DNA from: Robertmurraya dakarensis
GTDB lineage: Bacteria; Bacillota; Bacilli; Bacillales; Cytobacillaceae
DNA: 64,000 nt
Assembly: GCF_900156875.1 (NCBI RefSeq)
Contig: NZ_LT707409.1
Span: 2,098,244 to 2,162,243 of the forward strand
Direction: 5' to 3'
The notes under the pieces were generated by a model. It was given only the letters and a program-made list of their open reading frames with translations. It made no database searches and had not been told where the DNA came from. This document shows, one piece after another, positions 29,635 through 38,924 of this stretch. Each line of letters opens with the position of its first letter. Position 1 is the first letter of the stretch. Position numbers and translations under genes: made by a program.

Positions 29635-30330
29635 TCAAGGGCGGCTATTCTTATATCCATCACGGCTCCGATATTGCTGAGGAGCTCTTGCCGGATATCT
29701 TACTGGAAAGCTGAACATATGCACGAGCTGGGTAAAAGGGATGGCCGCAAACAGAATAAAGGAAAAGATGACATGTAACTGAAATAGGAACGGCACTCCC
29801 TCCATAAGCTGAATATCTGGTTGAAGGGTAAATAAGCTCCGAAACCACGGTCCTATGCTCACCCGGTACTCATAAGCTACAACAGTTGTATTATAAATAA
29901 TGGTCATGTATGTCCCTAACCCGGCGACCAGCAAAAGCCAAATAACAGTAAAATAATCAGCAAACGACGCATGAACACTGACTTTTGGATTAGTCATTTT
30001 ACGGATCAGAAGTACAATTAAACCTAAAACAACCATTAAACCTGCAGCTCCACCACCTGCAATAGCAAAAACATGGTACATATGGTCGCTTACTCCCATC
30101 GCCTCATAGACACTGATGGGAATTAGCACCCCCATTACATGACCAAAAAAGGCAAAGATAATCCCCCAATGGAAGAGCAAAGAACCAACCCTTAACCATT
30201 TTTTTTCAAAAATTTCAGTTGAAGGCGCGTGCCAACTAATCCCGCGAAAGACAATCCGATAAACAGCCGCTACTACTAGGATCGTCCCACATATATATGG
30301 AAAAATCCCCCACCAAAAAAATCCACTCAT
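29635..30330 (-). CDS. narI: Respiratory nitrate reductase gamma subunit (cytochrome b)
   Basis: 231 residues from M-S-G-F-F-W-W-G; AGGAGGAC precedes this ATG, and the longer frame to 30351 lacks a site. Five membrane helices. Carries the two b hemes that take electrons from menaquinol to NarH. Conserved heme-ligand regions: L-F-H-W-G-I-I-F-A-F-F-G-H-V-M-G early and Q-L-H-V-I-F-S-F near the end. Last gene of narGHJI. Confidence 0.96.
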   Translation of the reverse strand: MSGFFWWGIFPYICGTILVVAAVYRIVFRGISWHAPSTEIFEKKWLRVGSLLFHWGIIFAFFGHVMGVLIPISVYEAMGVSDHMYHVFAIAGGGAAGLMVVLGLIVLLIRKMTNPKVSVHASFADYFTVIWLLLVAGLGTYMTIIYNTTVVAYEYRVSIGPWFRSLFTLQPDIQLMEGVPFLFQLHVIFSFILFAAIPFTQLVHMFSFPVRYPARAPQQYRSRDGYKNSRP

Positions 30331-30400
30331 GTCAGTCCTCCTAAAAAGCAATTTGATGGTTCAACTAGAAAAATAATCTCGGAACAAGCAGCAAGCAGGC

Positions 30401-31012
30401 CTATTGTTCATTAATATAGGTCATTGGATAAGGAAGCGGGTCTAAATCAGCGGCTTCCCAACTGTTTTCCAACAGTTTTATTTCTTCTGGCTTTGGCGCT
30501 TCAAATACATGGGTCATCAGTAAATCAAAAAAAGCATGATAGTGATTTTCCTTAGGCAGATGGTTCAAAATCCGGTGAAGGCTGTAGGCCAAACGGCGTT
30601 TAAGCAAAGAAACACTGTCTCCTTCAGGTGCTGCCGCTAAAAGTTCTAACAGCATCGGAATATAATCCGCCAGTTCATCCCCCTGTCTCTCAAATCCTAA
30701 GTCAGAAATTAATCTTTGTAATTCTATTAACGCCCCTCCACGCTTGCGGCTGTCACCTAATTCCTGTGCAGTCAGGTAGAGTCCCGTCTTTTCTTTATAA
30801 TCGAAAGTTTCAACATAAAGCTCCTGCAGGTCCTTTAATGGCACCGAAAATAATGGCTTGACACAATTGAGCAATGCTGTTCGCAGTTCCTCTGATGGAA
30901 GGATTTCCGTCAGTTCCTTTTCTAAATCTGACCATTCTTCAAAAAAGGAGTCCTCTGGGTACTCTAAAAATCGTGACACCAACACTAACGTTGCTGCAGT
31001 TTCCAGGTTCAT
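30401..31012 (-). CDS. narJ: Nitrate reductase assembly chaperone NarJ
   Basis: 203 residues, all-helical TorD/DmsD-type chaperone that binds the NarG N-terminus and helps insert molybdenum cofactor and FS0. Typical L-Y-V-E-T-F-D-Y-K-E-K-T-G-L-Y-L-T and D-Y-I-P-M-L-L-E-L-L-A motifs. The ATG overlaps the narH stop by four bases (ATGA type). Confidence 0.94.
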   Translation of the reverse strand: MNLETAATLVLVSRFLEYPEDSFFEEWSDLEKELTEILPSEELRTALLNCVKPLFSVPLKDLQELYVETFDYKEKTGLYLTAQELGDSRKRGGALIELQRLISDLGFERQGDELADYIPMLLELLAAAPEGDSVSLLKRRLAYSLHRILNHLPKENHYHAFFDLLMTHVFEAPKPEEIKLLENSWEAADLDPLPYPMTYINEQ

Positions 31013-32511
31013 CCGTTTTCACTTCTTCCATACGGATAAGTGACCATGCCTTCCGGCGGTGCCAACTCCTCAATGCTGCAAGCTCCATAACGGTAATGGA
31101 GATCATCATCCATTTCCCGTCTGCCAGTTGGAATCACAAACCGCTCGTTATATTTCGCCACTCCAAGCAAGCGGGCCATATCCTCTAATTCTTCAACGGT
31201 TGTGTGCGCTTCTTTTAGAAGCTGGCTTTTTTTCATTTCATCAATGCCTCCAACGGTTTTCGCACGCATATGCACGCGCATCGCCGCCATTTTCAATAGC
31301 ACCCGGCGAATGACACTCGTGTCGTCAGCAGAAAGAATCGAAGCTAGATACTCCATCGGGATTCTCATTTGGTCAACTGCTGGAATATAGCCCTCAACGC
31401 TTAATTCCTGCTCATTCGTGATATGATTCATGATCGGACTAAGCGGCGGTACATACCAAACCATCGGAAGTGTTCGATACTCTGGATGAAGCGGCAAGGC
31501 TATTTTCCACTTCATTGCCATTTTATAAATAGGTGATTCCTGAGCACTTTTAATCCAGCTGTCATTGATCCCAGCTTCACGGGCTTTCTCAATCACTTCG
31601 GGATCATTTGGATCTAAGAAGACAGAAAGCTGCGCTTCATACAAATCCTTTGGATCCTCAACAGATGCGGCTTCCTTCACTTTATCGGCATCATACAGGA
31701 CTACTCCGATGTAACGGATTCGGCCAACACAAGTTTCAGAGCATACAGTAGGAAGTCCCGCTTCTGTTCTTGGATAACAAAAATTACATTTCTCTGCTTT
31801 ATGGGTGTTCCAGTTATAATACACTTTGTGATATGGACAGCCATTCATGCAGAAACGCCAGCCGCGGCAAGAATCTTGATCGACCAGAACAATGCCATCT
31901 TCATCGCGCTTATACAATGCTCCAGAAGGACAGGAAGCCACACAAGAAGGGTTTAAGCAATGCTCACAAATACGCGGCAGATACATCATGAACGTCTTCT
32001 CATATTCAAGAGCAATATGCTCCTGCAGCTTTTGAACATTAGGGTCCATCGGGACAATCTCACTGCCGCCAGCAAGATCATCATCCCAATTTGATCCCCA
32101 TTCAGGCTTGTCTATATACTTACCCGTAATCATCGAAACCGGACGGGCAACCGGAATATTGTCTTTCTTCGGACTTTTATGAAGATGTTCAAAATCATAA
32201 GTCCAAGGTTCATAAAAATCGTCCATACTAGCCATATTCGGGTTATAAAAAATATTAGCCAGCTTAGAGACCGGACCGCCTGCTTTTAAATGAAGCTGTC
32301 CATTTCTTAACGTCCAGCCGCCTTTATAGCGGTCTGTATTTTCCCATTCTTTCGGGTAACCTGGTCCCGGTCTTGTTTCGACATTGTTATACCACACATA
32401 TTCCATACCAGGGCGGTTTGTCCATGTGTTTTTACATGTCACCGAACAAGTGTGACAGCCAATACATTTATCCAAATGCATGACCATCGCTACTTGGGCT
32501 TTAATTCTCAA
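31009..32511 (-). CDS. narH: Respiratory nitrate reductase beta subunit (iron-sulfur)
   Basis: 500 residues. TTG start at 32511, nine bases after AAGGAGG located inside narG. Ferredoxin-like subunit with one [3Fe-4S] and three [4Fe-4S] clusters carrying electrons from NarI to NarG. Cys groups: C-I-G-C-H-T-C-S-V-T-C at the N-terminus, C-E-H-C-L-N-P-S-C-V-A-S-C, C-R-G-W-R-F-C-M-N-G-C (the Trp marks the 3Fe cluster) and C-N-F-C-Y-P-R. Overlaps narG and narJ. Confidence 0.97.
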   Translation of the reverse strand: MRIKAQVAMVMHLDKCIGCHTCSVTCKNTWTNRPGMEYVWYNNVETRPGPGYPKEWENTDRYKGGWTLRNGQLHLKAGGPVSKLANIFYNPNMASMDDFYEPWTYDFEHLHKSPKKDNIPVARPVSMITGKYIDKPEWGSNWDDDLAGGSEIVPMDPNVQKLQEHIALEYEKTFMMYLPRICEHCLNPSCVASCPSGALYKRDEDGIVLVDQDSCRGWRFCMNGCPYHKVYYNWNTHKAEKCNFCYPRTEAGLPTVCSETCVGRIRYIGVVLYDADKVKEAASVEDPKDLYEAQLSVFLDPNDPEVIEKAREAGINDSWIKSAQESPIYKMAMKWKIALPLHPEYRTLPMVWYVPPLSPIMNHITNEQELSVEGYIPAVDQMRIPMEYLASILSADDTSVIRRVLLKMAAMRVHMRAKTVGGIDEMKKSQLLKEAHTTVEELEDMARLLGVAKYNERFVIPTGRREMDDDLHYRYGACSIEELAPPEGMVTYPYGRSENG

Positions 32512-35500
32512 GCCAATCAACCTCCTTCAATGGACGGATAATCGTTAGCGTATCACGCTGACTTCCAGTCGGCCCATAATAGTTAAATCCATAGCTAAGC
32601 TGAGAATAACCGCCAATCATATGGGTTGCCTTCGGATAAATTCTCGTAACACTGTTATGTGTGCCGCCCCGTTTCTTATTAATATTATTTCCAGGAACCC
32701 CCATCGTACGATCCTGGGCGTGATGCATATAAGCTACTCCTCTAGGCATCCGATAGGTTAGAACGGCTCTTGCAGCAACCGCGCCATTTCGGTTATATAC
32801 TTCAATCCAATCATTATCTTTAATGCCGATGGATGCCGCATCTTGTTCATTTAACCAGACCACCTGCCAGCCGCGGAACAATTGCACCATATGATTGGTA
32901 TCGGTGAACATCGTGTGAATGCCCCACTTCTGGTGAGGAGTCATGTAACGGAGAGTCAATGACTTCCCAGTATTCTCCACTTCTTTTTCACCTTTTAAAA
33001 ATGGCCCCTTATTTATAGGCGGCAAATAAAGCGGCAGTCCTTCACCATAATCAAGCATGACCTCATGGTCGAGATAAAAGCTTTGCCTTCCAGTGAGCGT
33101 ATGCCATGGAATGTTGTACTCTTTATTGACTGTAAATGGAGAATAACGGCGATTATCCTTTTCAAGACCGCTCCAAACCGGTGTCGAAATGGTTTGACGA
33201 GGCTGAACCGTCAGAGCATCTAATGTATAATCTTCCTCTTCTCGTTCTTTAGCCAAGTGCTCCAGCTTCTTCCCTGTCTTTTCCTCCATTGATTTCCAGC
33301 CTTCAACAGCACGTTTTCCATTGGACGCCCCTGACATGAGCAAGATAGCATTGATCGCTTGTTTATCTGAAATAAGGTCTGGATGGCCCTGCCCTACCCC
33401 TTCACGCTTAGAAACACCAAGCCGATCAAGAAGCTGCTGGTATGCCTTTTCTCCATCTACCTTGACACCTTTAGTACCATAGCCATTGCGGATATTCGGA
33501 CCAATCGTTGACCACATATTAAAGACATTCGGATAATCTCTTTTTACAATATTGAGGTTTGACATTGTTTTTCCTGGAATAACATCTGTCTCGCCTTTTC
33601 TCCAGTCCTTTACTTTGCCAAATGGCTGCGCAATTTCGTTAATCGTATCGTGAGCAAGCGGTGCCATGACAACATCTTCGGCAGCTGGCAGATGCTCTTT
33701 GGCAAGCTCCGAAAAGACCTTTGCCACTTCCCTAAAGGCATCCCAATCACTCTTCGTTTCCCACGGCGGGGAAATAGCAGCATTGAACGGATGGATAAAC
33801 GGATGAAGATCGGTTGTACTAATATCAAATTTTTCATACCATGTTGCAGCAGGTAATAAAATGTCAGAAAACAATCCAGAGCTTGTCATACGGAAATCCA
33901 TCGCCACAAATAGATCTGTTTTACCTTCAGGCGGTTTCTCATCAATATGCACATCCTCTGGCTGCCATGAGTTCTCTGTATCTGTCAGCACAGAGTCAGT
34001 CGAACCAATGAGATGTTTGACAAAGTATTCATGACCTTTCCCGCTATCTCCTAATAGATTGGAACGCCAGTTAAAGAAGATGCGCGGGAAATTTCGTGGA
34101 TCATTTGGATTCTCAATCGCATACTGAATCTTTCCGTCTTTAATTTGATCAGCAATATCCTTAATAATGGCTTGATCGTCATCCTTTAAGCGCTTACGGG
34201 CATCCTCCATGACATCAAGGGAATTTTGTGACCATTGCGGGAAGCTCGGCAGCCAGCCAAGGCGAGCTGACATCGCGTTAAAATCAGAAGGGTGCATATT
34301 GCGATATTTATTGCTCCAGGCATTTTTTTCCTCATCCGCCTGATACTCATATCGGAACTGTTCTGTCGCAAAATAGAAAAACGATGTTCCATTCATAAAC
34401 CTTGGCGATTTCGTCCAATCATTAGCAAAAGCAATTTGTGAGAAGCCTTCAATCGGACGGACTTTTTCCTGGCCAACATAGTGAGCCCATCCGCCGCCAT
34501 TTACACCTTGAGATCCTGTAAGCAAAATAAGATTCAAAATGGCTCGATAAATTTGATCACTATGGAACCAGTGGTTTGTACCTCCCCCCATCGCTATCAT
34601 TGATTTTCCATTTGTGCGGGCAGCATTATCAGCAAATTCTCTTGCCACTTGAATGACATGATTACGGTTTACTCCTGTAATGCTTTCCTGCCATGCAGGT
34701 GTGTACGGCCGGTCGCTGTCATTATAATCTGTAGGGTAATCCCCCTGAAGACCACGGCTTATTCCCGTATGAGCCATCATAATGTCATAAATCGTTGTGA
34801 CGGTTAGTTCATTACCAGATACGCCTTGGATCTTCTTAACCGGTACTCCGCGGCTAACCTTACCGCCATCTTTCTCAGCAAAATAAGGAAAATCAACCAT
34901 TGCGATTTCATCTGCTTCATTAAGGAAACTAAGCTTAGGATTAATATCATTTCCGTCCGCATCTTTTAAATCTAAATTCCACTTTTGGCCATTGTCCCAG
35001 CGAAATCCTTGACTCCCGACCGGAATAGCCATTTTATTAGAATTTTCATCCCAAACAATCGTCTTCCATTCACCTAACTCCTGCTGCTGCTCGATATCCG
35101 AAGCTCGTAAAAAACGATCTGTTCGATAGTTGCCGCTTTGATTATCCAAAATGACTAAAAACGGTAAATCCGTGTATTGCTTTGCATAATCAATAAAATA
35201 AGGCGTCTGTTTATCAACGTAAAATTCTTTTAAAATCACATGAGTCATCGCCATTGCAAGAGCCCCATCTGTACCAGGCTTTGCCGGCAGCCAGATATCA
35301 GCAAATTTCTCATATTCTGCGTAATCAGGGCTTACCCCCACAACCTTCGTCCCGTTATAACGGGATTCGACCATAAAATGGGCGTCAGGTGTTCTTGTTT
35401 GCGGGATATTGGTTCCCCAAATGATGAAATATTTCGTGTTGTACCAATCACCGCTTTCAGGAACATCTGTCTGATCTCCCCAAACTTGCGGTGAAGCAGG

Positions 35501-36184
35501 AGGTAAATCTGCATACCAGTCATAAAAACTAAGGATTGTTCCTCCTATTAAAGATAAAAAGCGGGCTCCGCCTGCATAACTGATCATGGACATAGCAGGG
35601 ATCGGACTAAACCCAACAATACGATCAGGACCGTATTGTTTGATCGTATAAATAATCGACGCCGATATTAATTGGCAAAGTTCCTTCCATGTTCCACGGA
35701 CAAATCCGCCCCGGCCGCGTGCTTTTACATATTTCGCCCGTTTCTCTGGATCAGTCACGATGTTTTCCCAAGCCTGAACGGGGTTATCAGCTGTTTTCAT
35801 TTCGCTTTTCCACAGCTCATATAAATCTCCTCGTATATATGGATGTTTCACCCGAGTTGGGCTGTATGTATACCAGGAAAAGCTGGCTCCGCGCGGACAG
35901 CCTCGAGGTTCATAATCAGGAAAGTCATCTCCCGTTGACGGATAATCTGTTTGCTGTGTTTCATATGCAATAATTCCATCTTTGACATGAATTCTCCAGC
36001 TGCAAGATCCGGTACAATTCACTCCATGTGTAGAACGAACGATCTTATCATACTGCCAGCGTTTGCGATAAATTCCCTCTGAGTTACGCGGACGGGGGCT
36101 TTCTTCCGTCCAGCCTTGATTGATCCGTTCACCGCGTTTTAAATATTTTAGTGTTTGCAAAAGTTTATTCTGCTTTTTCTCCAT
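32501..36184 (-). CDS. narG: Respiratory nitrate reductase alpha subunit (Mo-bisMGD)
   Basis: 1227 residues from M-E-K-K-Q-N; AGGAAAGG lies nine bases before this ATG at 36184, and a start three codons upstream is less well placed. Catalyses nitrate to nitrite at the membrane's cytoplasmic face. FS0 ligands are in T-H-G-V-N-C-T-G-S-C-S-W and R-G-C-P-R-G-A. The Mo-coordinating Asp sits in Y-A-D-L-P-P-A-S-P-Q-V-W-G-D-Q-T-D-V-P-E-S. No Tat motif is needed for NarG and none is evident. It overlaps the preceding small gene by 20 bases. Confidence 0.97.
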   Translation of the reverse strand: MEKKQNKLLQTLKYLKRGERINQGWTEESPRPRNSEGIYRKRWQYDKIVRSTHGVNCTGSCSWRIHVKDGIIAYETQQTDYPSTGDDFPDYEPRGCPRGASFSWYTYSPTRVKHPYIRGDLYELWKSEMKTADNPVQAWENIVTDPEKRAKYVKARGRGGFVRGTWKELCQLISASIIYTIKQYGPDRIVGFSPIPAMSMISYAGGARFLSLIGGTILSFYDWYADLPPASPQVWGDQTDVPESGDWYNTKYFIIWGTNIPQTRTPDAHFMVESRYNGTKVVGVSPDYAEYEKFADIWLPAKPGTDGALAMAMTHVILKEFYVDKQTPYFIDYAKQYTDLPFLVILDNQSGNYRTDRFLRASDIEQQQELGEWKTIVWDENSNKMAIPVGSQGFRWDNGQKWNLDLKDADGNDINPKLSFLNEADEIAMVDFPYFAEKDGGKVSRGVPVKKIQGVSGNELTVTTIYDIMMAHTGISRGLQGDYPTDYNDSDRPYTPAWQESITGVNRNHVIQVAREFADNAARTNGKSMIAMGGGTNHWFHSDQIYRAILNLILLTGSQGVNGGGWAHYVGQEKVRPIEGFSQIAFANDWTKSPRFMNGTSFFYFATEQFRYEYQADEEKNAWSNKYRNMHPSDFNAMSARLGWLPSFPQWSQNSLDVMEDARKRLKDDDQAIIKDIADQIKDGKIQYAIENPNDPRNFPRIFFNWRSNLLGDSGKGHEYFVKHLIGSTDSVLTDTENSWQPEDVHIDEKPPEGKTDLFVAMDFRMTSSGLFSDILLPAATWYEKFDISTTDLHPFIHPFNAAISPPWETKSDWDAFREVAKVFSELAKEHLPAAEDVVMAPLAHDTINEIAQPFGKVKDWRKGETDVIPGKTMSNLNIVKRDYPNVFNMWSTIGPNIRNGYGTKGVKVDGEKAYQQLLDRLGVSKREGVGQGHPDLISDKQAINAILLMSGASNGKRAVEGWKSMEEKTGKKLEHLAKEREEEDYTLDALTVQPRQTISTPVWSGLEKDNRRYSPFTVNKEYNIPWHTLTGRQSFYLDHEVMLDYGEGLPLYLPPINKGPFLKGEKEVENTGKSLTLRYMTPHQKWGIHTMFTDTNHMVQLFRGWQVVWLNEQDAASIGIKDNDWIEVYNRNGAVAARAVLTYRMPRGVAYMHHAQDRTMGVPGNNINKKRGGTHNSVTRIYPKATHMIGGYSQLSYGFNYYGPTGSQRDTLTIIRPLKEVDWLEN

Positions 36185-36470
36185 AATCGTCATCCTTTCC
36201 TCTTATTAGGTGACTTCTGAGTGGATTAAAGTCTTCTCCTACAATGCGAAACGAATGTTCACTCGCCTGCAGCTCCTCTAAAAACACCTCTTTGCTAGCA
36301 GCATTTGCAGCAGCTAAAATCAACCGGTGCAGTGTATTCATATCGTTAATTTGGTAGATTTTCTGAATCATTTCTCCGGAAATAGAACCAAATCTCATTC
36401 TAGTAATATTAATTAAGTCTTCTCTATCTTCGACAAGCATGGCATCCGATTCGTATGAAAACATGAGCAA
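36165..36470 (-). CDS. Unrecognised 101-residue protein translationally coupled to narG
   Basis: I cannot assign this protein. It is soluble and mostly helical, with a stretch L-I-N-I-T-R-M-R-F-G-S-I-S-G-E-M-I-Q-K-I at residues 19-38 and L-H-R-L-I-L-A-A-A-N-A later. That pattern loosely resembles the helical DUF4351/Rpn C-terminal repeat, with low confidence. It overlaps the narG start by 20 bases, which implies coupled translation and a role tied to nitrate reductase. No Cys, hence not an iron-sulfur protein. Confidence 0.75.
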   Translation of the reverse strand: MLMFSYESDAMLVEDREDLINITRMRFGSISGEMIQKIYQINDMNTLHRLILAAANAASKEVFLEELQASEHSFRIVGEDFNPLRSHLIRGKDDDYGEKAE

Positions 36471-36480
36471 TATCCTTCCT

Positions 36481-36789
36481 TTACAATTTGATCATTTTAT
36501 AATAATCAGCAATTAATTGATTCTTACACTCATCAGCAGCTCGTTCAAAAAACAGCGTAACTTCATCATCAGGGTCCTTAGCTTGACTACTACTTATTTG
36601 AGTTTGGACTGTCTTTGAAAAACCATTAGAGAATTTTAAAACAATTTCAATCCCTTTTTCCTTTTTGATGACCGTTCCTTGGGCATCGTACGGATGGATA
36701 TTATATCGTGAAAATGTTTCGATCATTCTGTCATATACGGCAGGTGCTTCTACACGAAGCGACCCTTCTGAAAGCTGATATTCTCCCAT
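36481..36789 (-). CDS. Unrecognised 102-residue protein in the nar operon
   Basis: Soluble, mixed alpha/beta by appearance. N-terminal strand G-S-L-R-V-E-A, helix V-Y-D-R-M-I-E-T-F-S-R-Y, then strands I-E-I-V-L-K-F and a C-terminal helix. No signal peptide, membrane span or Cys-rich motif apart from one Cys. Ten bases upstream of the 101-residue gene and 37 bases after the hemerythrin-like gene, so it is in one transcript with narGHJI. Family unknown to me. Confidence 0.75.
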   Translation of the reverse strand: MGEYQLSEGSLRVEAPAVYDRMIETFSRYNIHPYDAQGTVIKKEKGIEIVLKFSNGFSKTVQTQISSSQAKDPDDEVTLFFERAADECKNQLIADYYKMIKL

Positions 36790-36826: not shown

Positions 36827-37252
36827 TTATTTTCCGCTAGTTCCCAGTAAATTATTCATCTCATCTTCATTATGTATTTCATCAACCAGTATCAAGCCAT
36901 CCATCAACTTCAACAGCTGCTCATCAGTCTTTTTTTCTTCGAGAAGAGATTTCATATTGTTGACCATTTTTCTCATGATATTATGATCGCGAGTCAGCTC
37001 AATCACTACCTCTTTTAATGAAGAATTTTCTTCCACCATTTCCTTGTATAACCCTTCTTCTTCGGACTCTGCATGCTTCAATGTCCTCGTTTCCCAATGC
37101 TCAATCGTAACTTCTGCAACTTGAAGCGCTTTGTCCAGCTCTTTATTTTCTAAACATTTGCTATATAATTCCCTCAATTCGCGGGCTTCATTTAGAGAAG
37201 CATCATGAATGGAAGAATGTGAATCCTGTTTTTTTAAGCTTGGTCCTGTCAT
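36827..37252 (-). CDS. Hemerythrin HHE-like protein, first gene of the nar operon
   Basis: 141 residues, four-helix-bundle character. Candidate di-iron ligands: H52 (I-E-H-W-E), H60 (L-K-H-A-E-S-E-E-E), E64, H90 (T-R-D-H-N-I-M-R), H127 (D-E-I-H-N-E-D-E-M) and nearby Glu. Such proteins bind oxygen or nitric oxide or repair iron-sulfur clusters (YtfE/ScdA type, though no ScdA N-terminal Cys domain is present). AAAGGAG precedes the ATG. Being first in the operon fits protection of NarGHI iron-sulfur centres or O2/NO sensing; this is inference. Confidence 0.75.
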   Translation of the reverse strand: MTGPSLKKQDSHSSIHDASLNEARELRELYSKCLENKELDKALQVAEVTIEHWETRTLKHAESEEEGLYKEMVEENSSLKEVVIELTRDHNIMRKMVNNMKSLLEEKKTDEQLLKLMDGLILVDEIHNEDEMNNLLGTSGK

Positions 37253-37319
37253 TAAATACCCAACTCCTTTATGATTGTTTCATTGTTAAACATCATAACC
37301 ATTAATCGTCCTGATAAAC

Positions 37320-37352
37320 GAAAAGAGACCGTCTAATTAGACAGTCTCTTTC
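37320..37352 (-). terminator. Terminator of narK
   Basis: Long stem AAAGAGACTGTCT/AGACGGTCTCTTT with loop AATT and one G-T pair, then TTCGTTT on the minus strand. It lies just after the narK stop and upstream of the hemerythrin-like gene, so narK and the nar operon are largely separate transcripts. Confidence 0.88.
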
Positions 37353-37361
37353 ATTTAGTCA

Positions 37362-38867
37362 TTAACTTTTCTTTGGGTCATTACTTAAGTCGCTGAATGA
37401 TCCAATATAATATTTAGCCGTTCCACCTTCATCATTAATTTCGGAAATGGTTAAATATTCTTTGTAAATTTCTCCATTCTTGCGTTTATTCCAAATCTCA
37501 CCCTGCCAGAACCCTTTTTCGCGAATCATTTCCCACATTTCCTGATAAAATTCTTTTCCATGACGGCCAGACCTAAGGACACTCGGAGTCTTTCCAACCA
37601 CTTCATCATATTGATAGCCAGTTAACTTTGTAAATGATGAATTGACTTTTTGAATCGTCCCATTTGGATCCGTAATCATCATACCTTGTGCTGTATGATC
37701 GAAAATTTTTGACTCTAGGCTTAATTTTTCCTGATAATACATCCAAACAACGATGATAAAGCTTGCCAGAGCAAATTCGGACAGAGCCATAAAACCAATT
37801 GCATAGTGGCCTGTAATTCCAAACACGATCGTTAAAACGATTGGCGGGAAGAATCCCCCCAAACCTCCAATAGCCGAGACAATTCCATTCACAATTCCAG
37901 CTTGTTTTGAAAAATAGAGAGGCACTAGCTTAAATACTACTCCGTTACCTATTCCAGCACAAAAAGCAATCGATAAACAACCCACCGTATAAAGCTCAAT
38001 GTTTGGCGAAAAGGAAAGAAGAGCCCCAGAGGCGGTCAATCCTGCAAAAACAAACATGAGCATAAAAAATGGATTGAATCTGTCTCCCAGCCAACCTCCG
38101 ACCGGCCTCATTAATGTAGCTAATGTTATAAATCCGGCTGTCCGCAGTCCAGCATCAACCGTATCGAGTCCGAAATGATTGACCAAAAAGTTCGGCAAAT
38201 AAACGGTCAAAGCAACAAAGGAGCCAAACGTTATAAAGTAAAATAATGAAAGAAACCAGATTTTCTGATCCTTATATACCCCTTTTATCTGATCTGTTAA
38301 CGAAGCATGTACCTTCGGCTCTTTGCGATCCCCAAAAAGGAAATTTAAAACCGCAAATAAAATGAGAATGATTAAAAACATTCGAACAGCTGTATTCCAT
38401 CCATATGCATTTGCAATAACAGGTGCTGCAAATGCAGTAATCGCTGTTCCGATGTTACCTGCTCCATAAATACCGTTCACAAATCCATGCTTTTCCTTTG
38501 GATAATACTTCGGAAGTGATGTAACACCGATCGAAAAAACGGCACCGCCAATCCCAAGGAAAAGACCTCCAATGACTAAGTCCGCAAATGAATCCGCAAT
38601 ACTTATATAAAATACCGGAAAAAGCAAAGCAATAAAGCTAATCGTGAACAGGTTTCTCGCACCGATTTTATTAGTCCAAAAGCCTAAAAAGACCCGCAGT
38701 ATCGATCCTAACACAACAGGAACGGCTGTTACGATTGAAACTTGGCCCTCTGTTAATTCAATGTCTGCTCTCATATTGGCGATAAGAGAAGAGATAATAA
38801 CCCACACCATGAAACCAACAACAAGGCTGGCTGTCTGCAGCGGCAATTGCCATTTAGTGACTTTCAA
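37362..38867 (-). CDS. narK: NarK-type nitrate/nitrite MFS transporter with C-terminal PAS domain
   Basis: 501 residues. Start TTG at 38867, eight bases after AAAGGAG; a TTG at 38885 overlaps that site. Residues 1-380 form a twelve-helix nitrate/nitrite porter: R-V-F-L-G-F-W-T-N-K-I-G-A-R early, and the nitrate signature in G-A-G-N-I-G-T-A-I and G-x-G-G-F-F-P-P. Residues 385-495 are a PAS domain (I-F-D-H-T-A-Q-G-M-M-I-T-D, F-T-K-L-T-G-Y, V-L-R-S-G-R-H, G-F-W-Q-G-E-I-W-N-K-R-K-N-G-E) of the type usually in sensor kinases or diguanylate cyclases. No kinase, GGDEF or DNA-binding module follows. A nitrate transporter fused to a sensory domain is unusual. Confidence 0.93.
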   Translation of the reverse strand: MKVTKWQLPLQTASLVVGFMVWVIISSLIANMRADIELTEGQVSIVTAVPVVLGSILRVFLGFWTNKIGARNLFTISFIALLFPVFYISIADSFADLVIGGLFLGIGGAVFSIGVTSLPKYYPKEKHGFVNGIYGAGNIGTAITAFAAPVIANAYGWNTAVRMFLIILILFAVLNFLFGDRKEPKVHASLTDQIKGVYKDQKIWFLSLFYFITFGSFVALTVYLPNFLVNHFGLDTVDAGLRTAGFITLATLMRPVGGWLGDRFNPFFMLMFVFAGLTASGALLSFSPNIELYTVGCLSIAFCAGIGNGVVFKLVPLYFSKQAGIVNGIVSAIGGLGGFFPPIVLTIVFGITGHYAIGFMALSEFALASFIIVVWMYYQEKLSLESKIFDHTAQGMMITDPNGTIQKVNSSFTKLTGYQYDEVVGKTPSVLRSGRHGKEFYQEMWEMIREKGFWQGEIWNKRKNGEIYKEYLTISEINDEGGTAKYYIGSFSDLSNDPKKS

Positions 38868-38894
38868 TAGAACTTCTCCTTTCAAAGATCTGTA

Positions 38895-38924
38895 GACAGA
38901 AAAAGTGACAAATCACTTTCTGTC
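38895..38924 (-). promoter_or_regulatory. Leader hairpin/operator upstream of narK
   Basis: Inverted repeat with left arm GACAGAAAAAGTGA and right arm TCACTTTCTGTC around CAAA. As minus-strand RNA it gives a 12-bp stem with a UU bulge. It ends about 16 bases before the narK ribosome site and no T run follows, so it is not a standard terminator. The GTGA-N4-TCAC core differs from the Bacillus Fnr site, which has N6. Confidence 0.5.

Follow-up and report, generated by a model that had tools for sequence, protein, structure and literature searches.

The narK-PAS locus

The window analyzed here, a stretch of 64,000 nucleotides from the genome of Robertmurraya dakarensis (contig NZ_LT707409.1, positions 2,098,244 to 2,162,243), carries on the minus strand a gene in which a NarK-type porter is followed by a PAS domain (Table 1). 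The frame is uninterrupted over the whole gene, from the TTG codon at 38867 to the stop codon at 37362, and the single continuous frame described in an earlier note made from the sequence alone is therefore borne out, with exactly the same coordinates. In the Pfam search of the 501-residue product, MFS_1 spans residues 14–340 (7e-41) and PAS-type models span about residues 387–495 (PAS_9, 3e-16). These were the only kinds of domain found in this search, in agreement with the C-terminal PAS devoid of any output domain that had been proposed in the same note.

Table 1. Features of the narK-PAS gene and of the nar genes that follow it (positions in the window)
Feature	Position	Strand	Basis
narK-PAS gene, 501 residues and stop codon, TTG start	37362..38867	minus	Frame, Pfam domains
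NarK (MFS) part, residues 1–379; R58 and R254 invariant	37731..38867	minus	
Unbroken helix, residues 355–391, from TM12 into the PAS N-cap	37695..37805	minus	AlphaFold2, alignment
PAS domain, residues 389–496	37380..37703	minus	Domain search, PDB match, PAS model
Trp445 codon, F-alpha Trp of the FAD-PAS signature	37533..37535	minus	
Asn460 codon, counterpart of NifL Asn102 and Aer Asn85	37488..37490	minus	
Ribosome-binding site AAAGGAG, spaced eight bases from the TTG start	38876..38882	minus	
Strong hairpin directly after the narK-PAS stop, with U-rich tail	37315..37358	minus	-22 kcal/mol, z -7.5
Hemerythrin-domain protein, next gene after narK-PAS; same neighbor in other loci	36827..37252	minus	Pfam
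Small nar-linked ORF, 102 residues, no Pfam match	36481..36789	minus	
Small nar-linked ORF, 101 residues, no Pfam match	36165..36470	minus	
narG, respiratory nitrate reductase alpha subunit	32501..36193	minus	
narH	31009..32520	minus	
narJ-like gene	30401..31012	minus	Name based on its position and sequence; NCBIfam search at 1e-30 without match
narI	29635..30351	minus	

The strong hairpin located after the stop codon is a possible terminator, which suggests that narK-PAS may be transcribed alone; the consensus terminator scan listed none at 37315..37358. On the other side of the gene, between narK-PAS and the upstream short-chain dehydrogenase gene, there is an inverted repeat (GACAGAAAGTGA..TCACTTTTTCTGTC, window 38895–38924), which could be either a regulator site or a terminator.

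The porter part

The top NCBIfam match of the product is the NarK family TIGR00886, with a score of 224 bits, which lies under the naming cut-off of 311.7; a relative devoid of the PAS (locus L146) reaches the same score (223.8 bits). The AlphaFold2 model of the full protein, built from 72 aligned sequences, shows 12 membrane helices and a folded PAS, with a mean pLDDT of 86.5. The blocks of residues 391–490 reach pLDDT values of 87–92, and the weakest stretch belongs to the porter (residues 311–330, pLDDT 62–64). The top ten PDB matches obtained with Foldseek all belong to NarK or NarU of E. coli, and the complete twelve-helix NarK porter announced in the earlier note was thus confirmed. The E. 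coli proteins (4jr9, 4u4t, and 4iu8) share with the present one the 12-helix MFS fold, an equivalent pair of arginines and a nitrate reductase context, but their solved chains, 466–475 residues long, match the porter part only, and the identity in the fold alignment amounts to 21–23%.

To compare the PAS-bearing proteins, 129 full-length ORFs and the query were aligned, and once the duplicates had been dropped 122 distinct sequences were left; a copy interrupted within the PAS (L031) and a 244-residue fragment (in L069) were left out. R58 and R254, which are aligned with NarU, are present in all 122 sequences, and we take them to be the two arginines of the anion site. The mutant table given in PMC3445494 fits this role of the two arginines. 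The product of narK-PAS would be a respiratory NarK-type nitrate porter, which probably works by nitrate/nitrite exchange.

Distribution of the fusion

The genome containing the window carries a second full copy of the gene, which is 65% identical and has a CRP/FNR-type gene and a further narGHJI set as neighbors; in this region (L161:3168-9494), the narK-PAS gene is divergent from the CRP/FNR-type gene and the second narGHJI operon. In the family to which the host belongs, matches at E 1e-60 or better were obtained in 135 of the 193 genomes, PAS-bearing and PAS-less proteins being pooled in this count. The candidates scored per genome were the best 8 in the family, the best 5 in the order and the best 3 in the phylum, so that extra copies may have been missed.

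The order-wide draw, with its best 5 candidates per genome, yielded 108 matches in 83 of the 299 genomes. Among the 69 matches showing at least 60% identity, 54 (78%) reach through the PAS, including the interrupted L031, and 15 lack a full PAS, in one case due to a contig end. None of the 39 matches below 60% identity reaches the PAS. One stop inside the match was flagged in 3 of the 54 (G300, G082, and G454): G082 is the interrupted L031, and G300 (L038) has a full-length frame. The view taken in the earlier note that known NarK proteins have nothing beyond the membrane part therefore fails in this order. The fusion of two genes by a frame-joining or assembly error, which had also been considered, is ruled out by these 54 relatives and by the second full copy in the same genome; nor is the PAS missing from all close relatives or devoid of a folded core. 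In the phylum-wide draw, 11 of the 398 genomes have a match at 1e-50, and the five full-length matches found outside the order all come from one other family of the same class.

A set of PAS-bearing loci was also collected by means of a peptide-pattern search, which is a non-random sample, one of the patterns spanning Trp445. The best 80 of the 215 loci obtained are all full length, and they come from Bacillaceae, Paenibacillus, Brevibacillus, Cohnella, Sporosarcina, Planococcus, Gracilibacillus, and others. In Gracilibacillus ureilyticus (L071:3574-9491), two narK-PAS genes stand in tandem behind narHJI.

The PAS domain and its putative cofactor

The top five PDB sequence matches of the PAS are MmoS, NifL, NifL in the NifL-NifA complex, a flavin LOV protein and Aer: four of these five are FAD-PAS proteins, and LOV proteins make up most of the remainder. 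In the NCBIfam search of the PAS stretch, the top profile is that of the phosphodiesterase DibA (138 bits), followed by that of NifL (78 bits). The domain was also modeled separately (pLDDT 88), and the first match of this model is NifL 2gj3 (1.1 A, TM 0.89, 31% identity). NifL occupies ranks 1–3 of the fold ranking, rank 4 is the PAS of CPS_1291, the title of which mentions no ligand, and the lower matches are mostly FMN-binding LOV proteins.

FAD-binding PAS domains are recognized by the presence of at least two of three residues, namely the F-alpha Trp, which is the main mark of FAD binding, and an Asn or a His, which are second marks (PAS superfamily survey, PMC10468136). Trp445 and Asn460, i.e., two of these marks, are both kept in 121 of the 122 sequences, as well as in all 41 sequences obtained without peptide patterns. 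Among the 122 sequences, no LOV-type flavin-binding Cys was found (Cys occurs in at most four of them at every PAS column), nor any heme His of the FixL or DosP type (no PAS column has His in more than 90% of the sequences; residue 436 has it in 67/122), and the NreB-type set of Cys residues for [4Fe-4S] is not conserved in the PAS. The lack of conserved Cys and His argues against LOV photochemistry, heme and an NreB-like Fe-S cluster. The earlier note gave as an example the closing of nitrate uptake in the presence of oxygen or nitric oxide; direct sensing of O2 or NO by means of a heme is therefore unlikely, and the FAD-PAS signature makes the redox state the better guess for the signal perceived.

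The FAD-PAS domains of NifL (2gj3), MmoS (3ewk), and Aer (8dik) resemble that of NarK in their fold and in the Trp and Asn of the FAD site, but in those proteins the PAS drives a kinase-like module or a chemoreceptor. They also differ in the vicinity of the flavin. The NifL side chains described as forming hydrogen bonds around the flavin are Ser39, Glu70, Asn102, Tyr110, and His133; in the alignment with NifL, Asn102 and Tyr110 are kept as Asn460 and Tyr468, whereas Ser39, Glu70, and His133 are replaced by Met397, Pro428, and Phe491. Counterparts of the NifL-type switch residues Glu70 and His133 are thus absent, as are those of His53 and Arg115 of Aer, which characterize the Aer/MmoS-type redox PAS, the residues found instead being Pro428 (120/122) and Phe491 (117/122). 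Since these flavin-tuning residues are replaced, the redox chemistry may differ from that of NifL and Aer, or the flavin may be structural. Taken together, the signature and the fold suggest that the PAS of NarK probably binds FAD. The Trp and Asn residues are also present in all 44 non-NarK PAS domains matching the NarK-PAS profile in the loci fetched, so that the signature marks a PAS subfamily rather than a role specific to NarK.

The junction and selective constraints

No indels were found in residues 360–400, nor in the PAS core (residues 400–493), in any of the 122 sequences, although their pairwise identity goes down to 58% in the MFS part and 36% in the PAS; as these sequences were picked as full length, large truncations are absent from the set by design. 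In the AlphaFold2 model, the helix leading from TM12 to the PAS shows no break, and its blocks have pLDDT values of 80–94. The dN/dS ratio of the PAS has a median of 0.064 and a maximum of 0.34 in 65 non-independent pairs, and the median for the MFS part is 0.039 in 65 pairs. The distances in the MFS part and the PAS co-vary (Mantel r 0.75, none of the 2000 permutations being as high), which is what shared descent predicts.

The PAS is under purifying selection, and the fixed length together with the low dN/dS indicates that it is a selected part whose register relative to the last membrane helix is fixed. It is nearly certain that the fusion is genuine and under selection. This anatomy, as modeled, would fit a gating of the porter in cis.

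Gene neighborhood

The flanks examined around the 20 PAS-less loci extend over about 6 kb per side, and are shorter on one side in L142, L149, L150, L154, and L159. In raw counts, uncorrected for kinship or for the unequal flanks, narG was found near 35 of the best 80 of 215 PAS-bearing loci vs. 12 of the 20 PAS-less loci, a NasC-like molybdenum reductase near 32/80 vs. 2/20, and a gene of a PAS histidine-kinase family near 36/80 vs. 2/20. A LuxR-type regulator occurs in 25 and a GAF protein in 21 of the same 80 PAS-bearing loci. In the 64-kb window, no gene of the PAS histidine-kinase family and no other PAS of the NarK-PAS subtype was found.

The two small ORFs located in the window between the hemerythrin gene and narG (36165–36789) recur in this position in 8 and 7 of the best 80 of 215 loci. 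In L089 (14630-17170), an MHYT-PAS-histidine kinase is encoded near narK-PAS, and its three PAS domains match the NarK-PAS profile; similar kinases lie near narK-PAS in L063, L097, and L105, the MHYT and kinase parts having been scanned in L089 only. A family of 365-residue proteins, represented by L077:2864-3958, which has no Pfam (1e-5) or NCBIfam (1e-10) match, is present in 20 of these 80 loci, often adjoining the NasC-like reductase with its Fe-S and Rieske partners.

Probable gain and loss of the PAS

A tree was constructed from the MFS part alone, using the 122 PAS-bearing rows and 26 PAS-less rows, the latter including five outgroup rows and the interrupted L031. On this tree, the presence or absence of the PAS changes 12 times, and at least six of these changes are forced by well-supported branches, L031 being counted in. 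The set used for the AU test contained 72 rows and did not include L031, seven rows having been left out and the PAS-bearing rows thinned to 53. In this reduced set, parsimony gives nine changes, and a topology holding the PAS-bearing rows together was rejected (AU p 5e-10). In a tree based on the PAS alone, which has few columns, the 120 NarK-PAS rows and the 44 other PAS domains require two changes, one of which is forced, and this result is compatible with a single origin of the fused PAS. As the PAS-less relatives are nested in the PAS-bearing tree, the PAS has probably been lost repeatedly, and the simplest reading of these trees would be one gain followed by repeated losses.

In two PAS-less proteins (L141 and L160), the C-terminal tail retains a resemblance to the beginning of the PAS. 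Downstream of the PAS-less genes, the search for PAS remnants gave a clear match only in L031 (1633-3156), where the narK-PAS copy is broken inside the PAS, either by natural decay or by a sequencing error. When the 20 PAS-less loci were searched with the NarK-PAS profile for a separate PAS gene beside the porter, the only one found was the PAS kinase in L160.

In three PAS-less loci (L145, L146, and L148), the genes occur in the order narK, CRP/FNR, ywiC, narG, which we take to be that of B. subtilis. These loci would therefore belong, judging by gene order, to relatives of B. subtilis, and the loss of the PAS has apparently also affected the B. subtilis type; fnr is co-transcribed with narK in B. 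subtilis (PMC8139620). The apparent repeated losses of the PAS, many of them beside narG (12 of the 20 PAS-less loci), imply that it is dispensable for nitrate respiration in some lineages.

A possible redox control of the porter

Oxygen inhibits the activity of hypoxic nitrate porters by way of the redox state of the cell (PMC3445494), and reports that it blocks nitrate uptake at the level of the porter go back to the 1980s (references 18–21 in PMC3445494). For M. tuberculosis, the point of control was located in NarK2 itself, with a mechanism and a sensor described as unknown (PMC3445494). The fusion described here suggests how such a control might be exerted: the flavin-PAS may modulate its own NarK in cis depending on the redox state of the cell, which we consider to have a roughly even chance of being correct. 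The cytoplasmic C-terminus of NarK would carry a NifL-like, FAD-type PAS, the flavin of which would be reduced in vivo when electron acceptors run short and oxidized once oxygen returns. This change would twist or reposition the helix connecting TM12 with the PAS, so that the transporting state would be favored under reducing conditions and an arrested state under oxidizing conditions, and no nitrate would be taken up during oxygen respiration. The direction of the effect (open when reduced) is more tentative than the modulation itself. In its fullest form, the proposal is that NarK-PAS may be a self-contained redox-gated anion porter, in which the flavin locks or frees the transport cycle via TM12, and which was ancestral in Bacillales and was later lost in several lineages; this is conceivable, with a likelihood falling short of even. 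Redox control of the porter's own activity is a feature shared with the M. tuberculosis NarK2; that protein differs in being modeled as a 12-helix porter, no PAS being mentioned in the relevant parts of PMC3445494, and the existence of redox control in porters described without a PAS counts against gating by this domain.

Some of the same data can be read in other ways. The genes often adjoin nitrate reductase genes, and the PAS might be a docking or dimerization module serving to assemble a NarK dimer or to bind a nearby partner such as nitrate reductase, with no switching of transport. PAS domains often dimerize, as is known from the family at large, and the replacement of the redox-tuning residues of NifL and Aer would be in line with such a role. 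A loose tether, however, has no need of a junction of fixed length (0/122 indels); the Trp and Asn of the ligand pocket are kept in 121/122 sequences, and the PAS-bearing porter accompanies two different reductases. A mere docking role is on the whole rather unlikely. It is hardly more than marginally probable that the PAS gates NarK in response to some other bound ligand, such as a small metabolite or quinone-like molecule: PAS domains bind many ligands, a range well known in this family, and three of the five flavin-contact side chains of NifL are changed, but the closest relatives of the domain in both fold and sequence are flavin PAS domains, and it retains the FAD signature.

The frequent presence of histidine kinases with PAS domains, LuxR-type regulators and GAF proteins in the best 80 of 215 loci, along with the fact that the PAS domains of some of these kinases are close to that of NarK, raises the idea of a transceptor, in which the transport cycle would alter the PAS, which would then signal in trans to the kinases encoded nearby. 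We also consider this improbable: in 44 of these 80 loci the available flank is devoid of such a kinase, the window itself contains neither a kinase of this family nor a second PAS of the subtype, the PAS of NarK has no output part, and the shared PAS subtype may reflect only common ancestry. That the PAS is a functionless passenger, or the fusion an assembly error, is very improbable. The repeated emergence of PAS-less relatives (at least six forced changes including L031, and nine by parsimony without it) would be in keeping with a passenger, whereas purifying selection, the fixed length, the wide recurrence of the fusion and the second copy in the genome all run counter to both possibilities.

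If the flavin-PAS does modulate its own porter, NarK-PAS would add a bacterial case in which a PAS acts directly on a transport protein, with no enzyme or DNA-binding output, and the apparent loss of the PAS in the B. subtilis type would explain why this model organism never revealed a redox-gated NarK. The presence of a flavin-type PAS on NarK makes the question of oxygen control directly testable through a single domain, and bears on the control of nitrate respiration and denitrification across many Bacillales.

Previous descriptions of related proteins

MFS porters with fused C-terminal regulatory domains, including PAS, have been described as possibly regulatory in a 2023 review (PMC10710835), which cites Willson et al. 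(2019) for these fusions. The MFS-PAS architecture as a class is therefore not new, and NarK-PAS may already be present in the survey by Willson et al. (2019). The general architecture is the same, but in the section of the review dealing with the PAS case, no substrate, cofactor or mechanism is named. The CbrA-type proteins (SLC5-STAC-PAS-kinase; PMC7918813) are likewise transporters joined to a PAS; they differ in having a kinase output and belonging to another transporter family, and transport is independent of the sensor part in their case.

As far as the literature was searched, no account of NarK-PAS, its cofactor or its role was met with, and the passages with NarK and PAS wording in PMC8139620, PMC3655542, PMC7438415, PMC8862662, PMC8199190, and PMC2628731 do not present the fusion. 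Within the literature covered, the following points are new: how the fusion is distributed, its invariant junction, the assignment of the PAS to the FAD type, its probable repeated loss, and the proposed link with redox-controlled nitrate uptake.

The narK3 gene of N. bataviensis and narK of B. azotoformans were described as plain NarK in PMC3475470, where the nar-linked NarKs are assigned to the NarK2 nitrate/nitrite antiporters and the word PAS is absent from the main text. The narK3 gene of N. bataviensis has the same start on the contig as narK-PAS of locus L083 (contig126, running downwards from 47642), and at least one narK-PAS gene has thus already been published as a plain narK.
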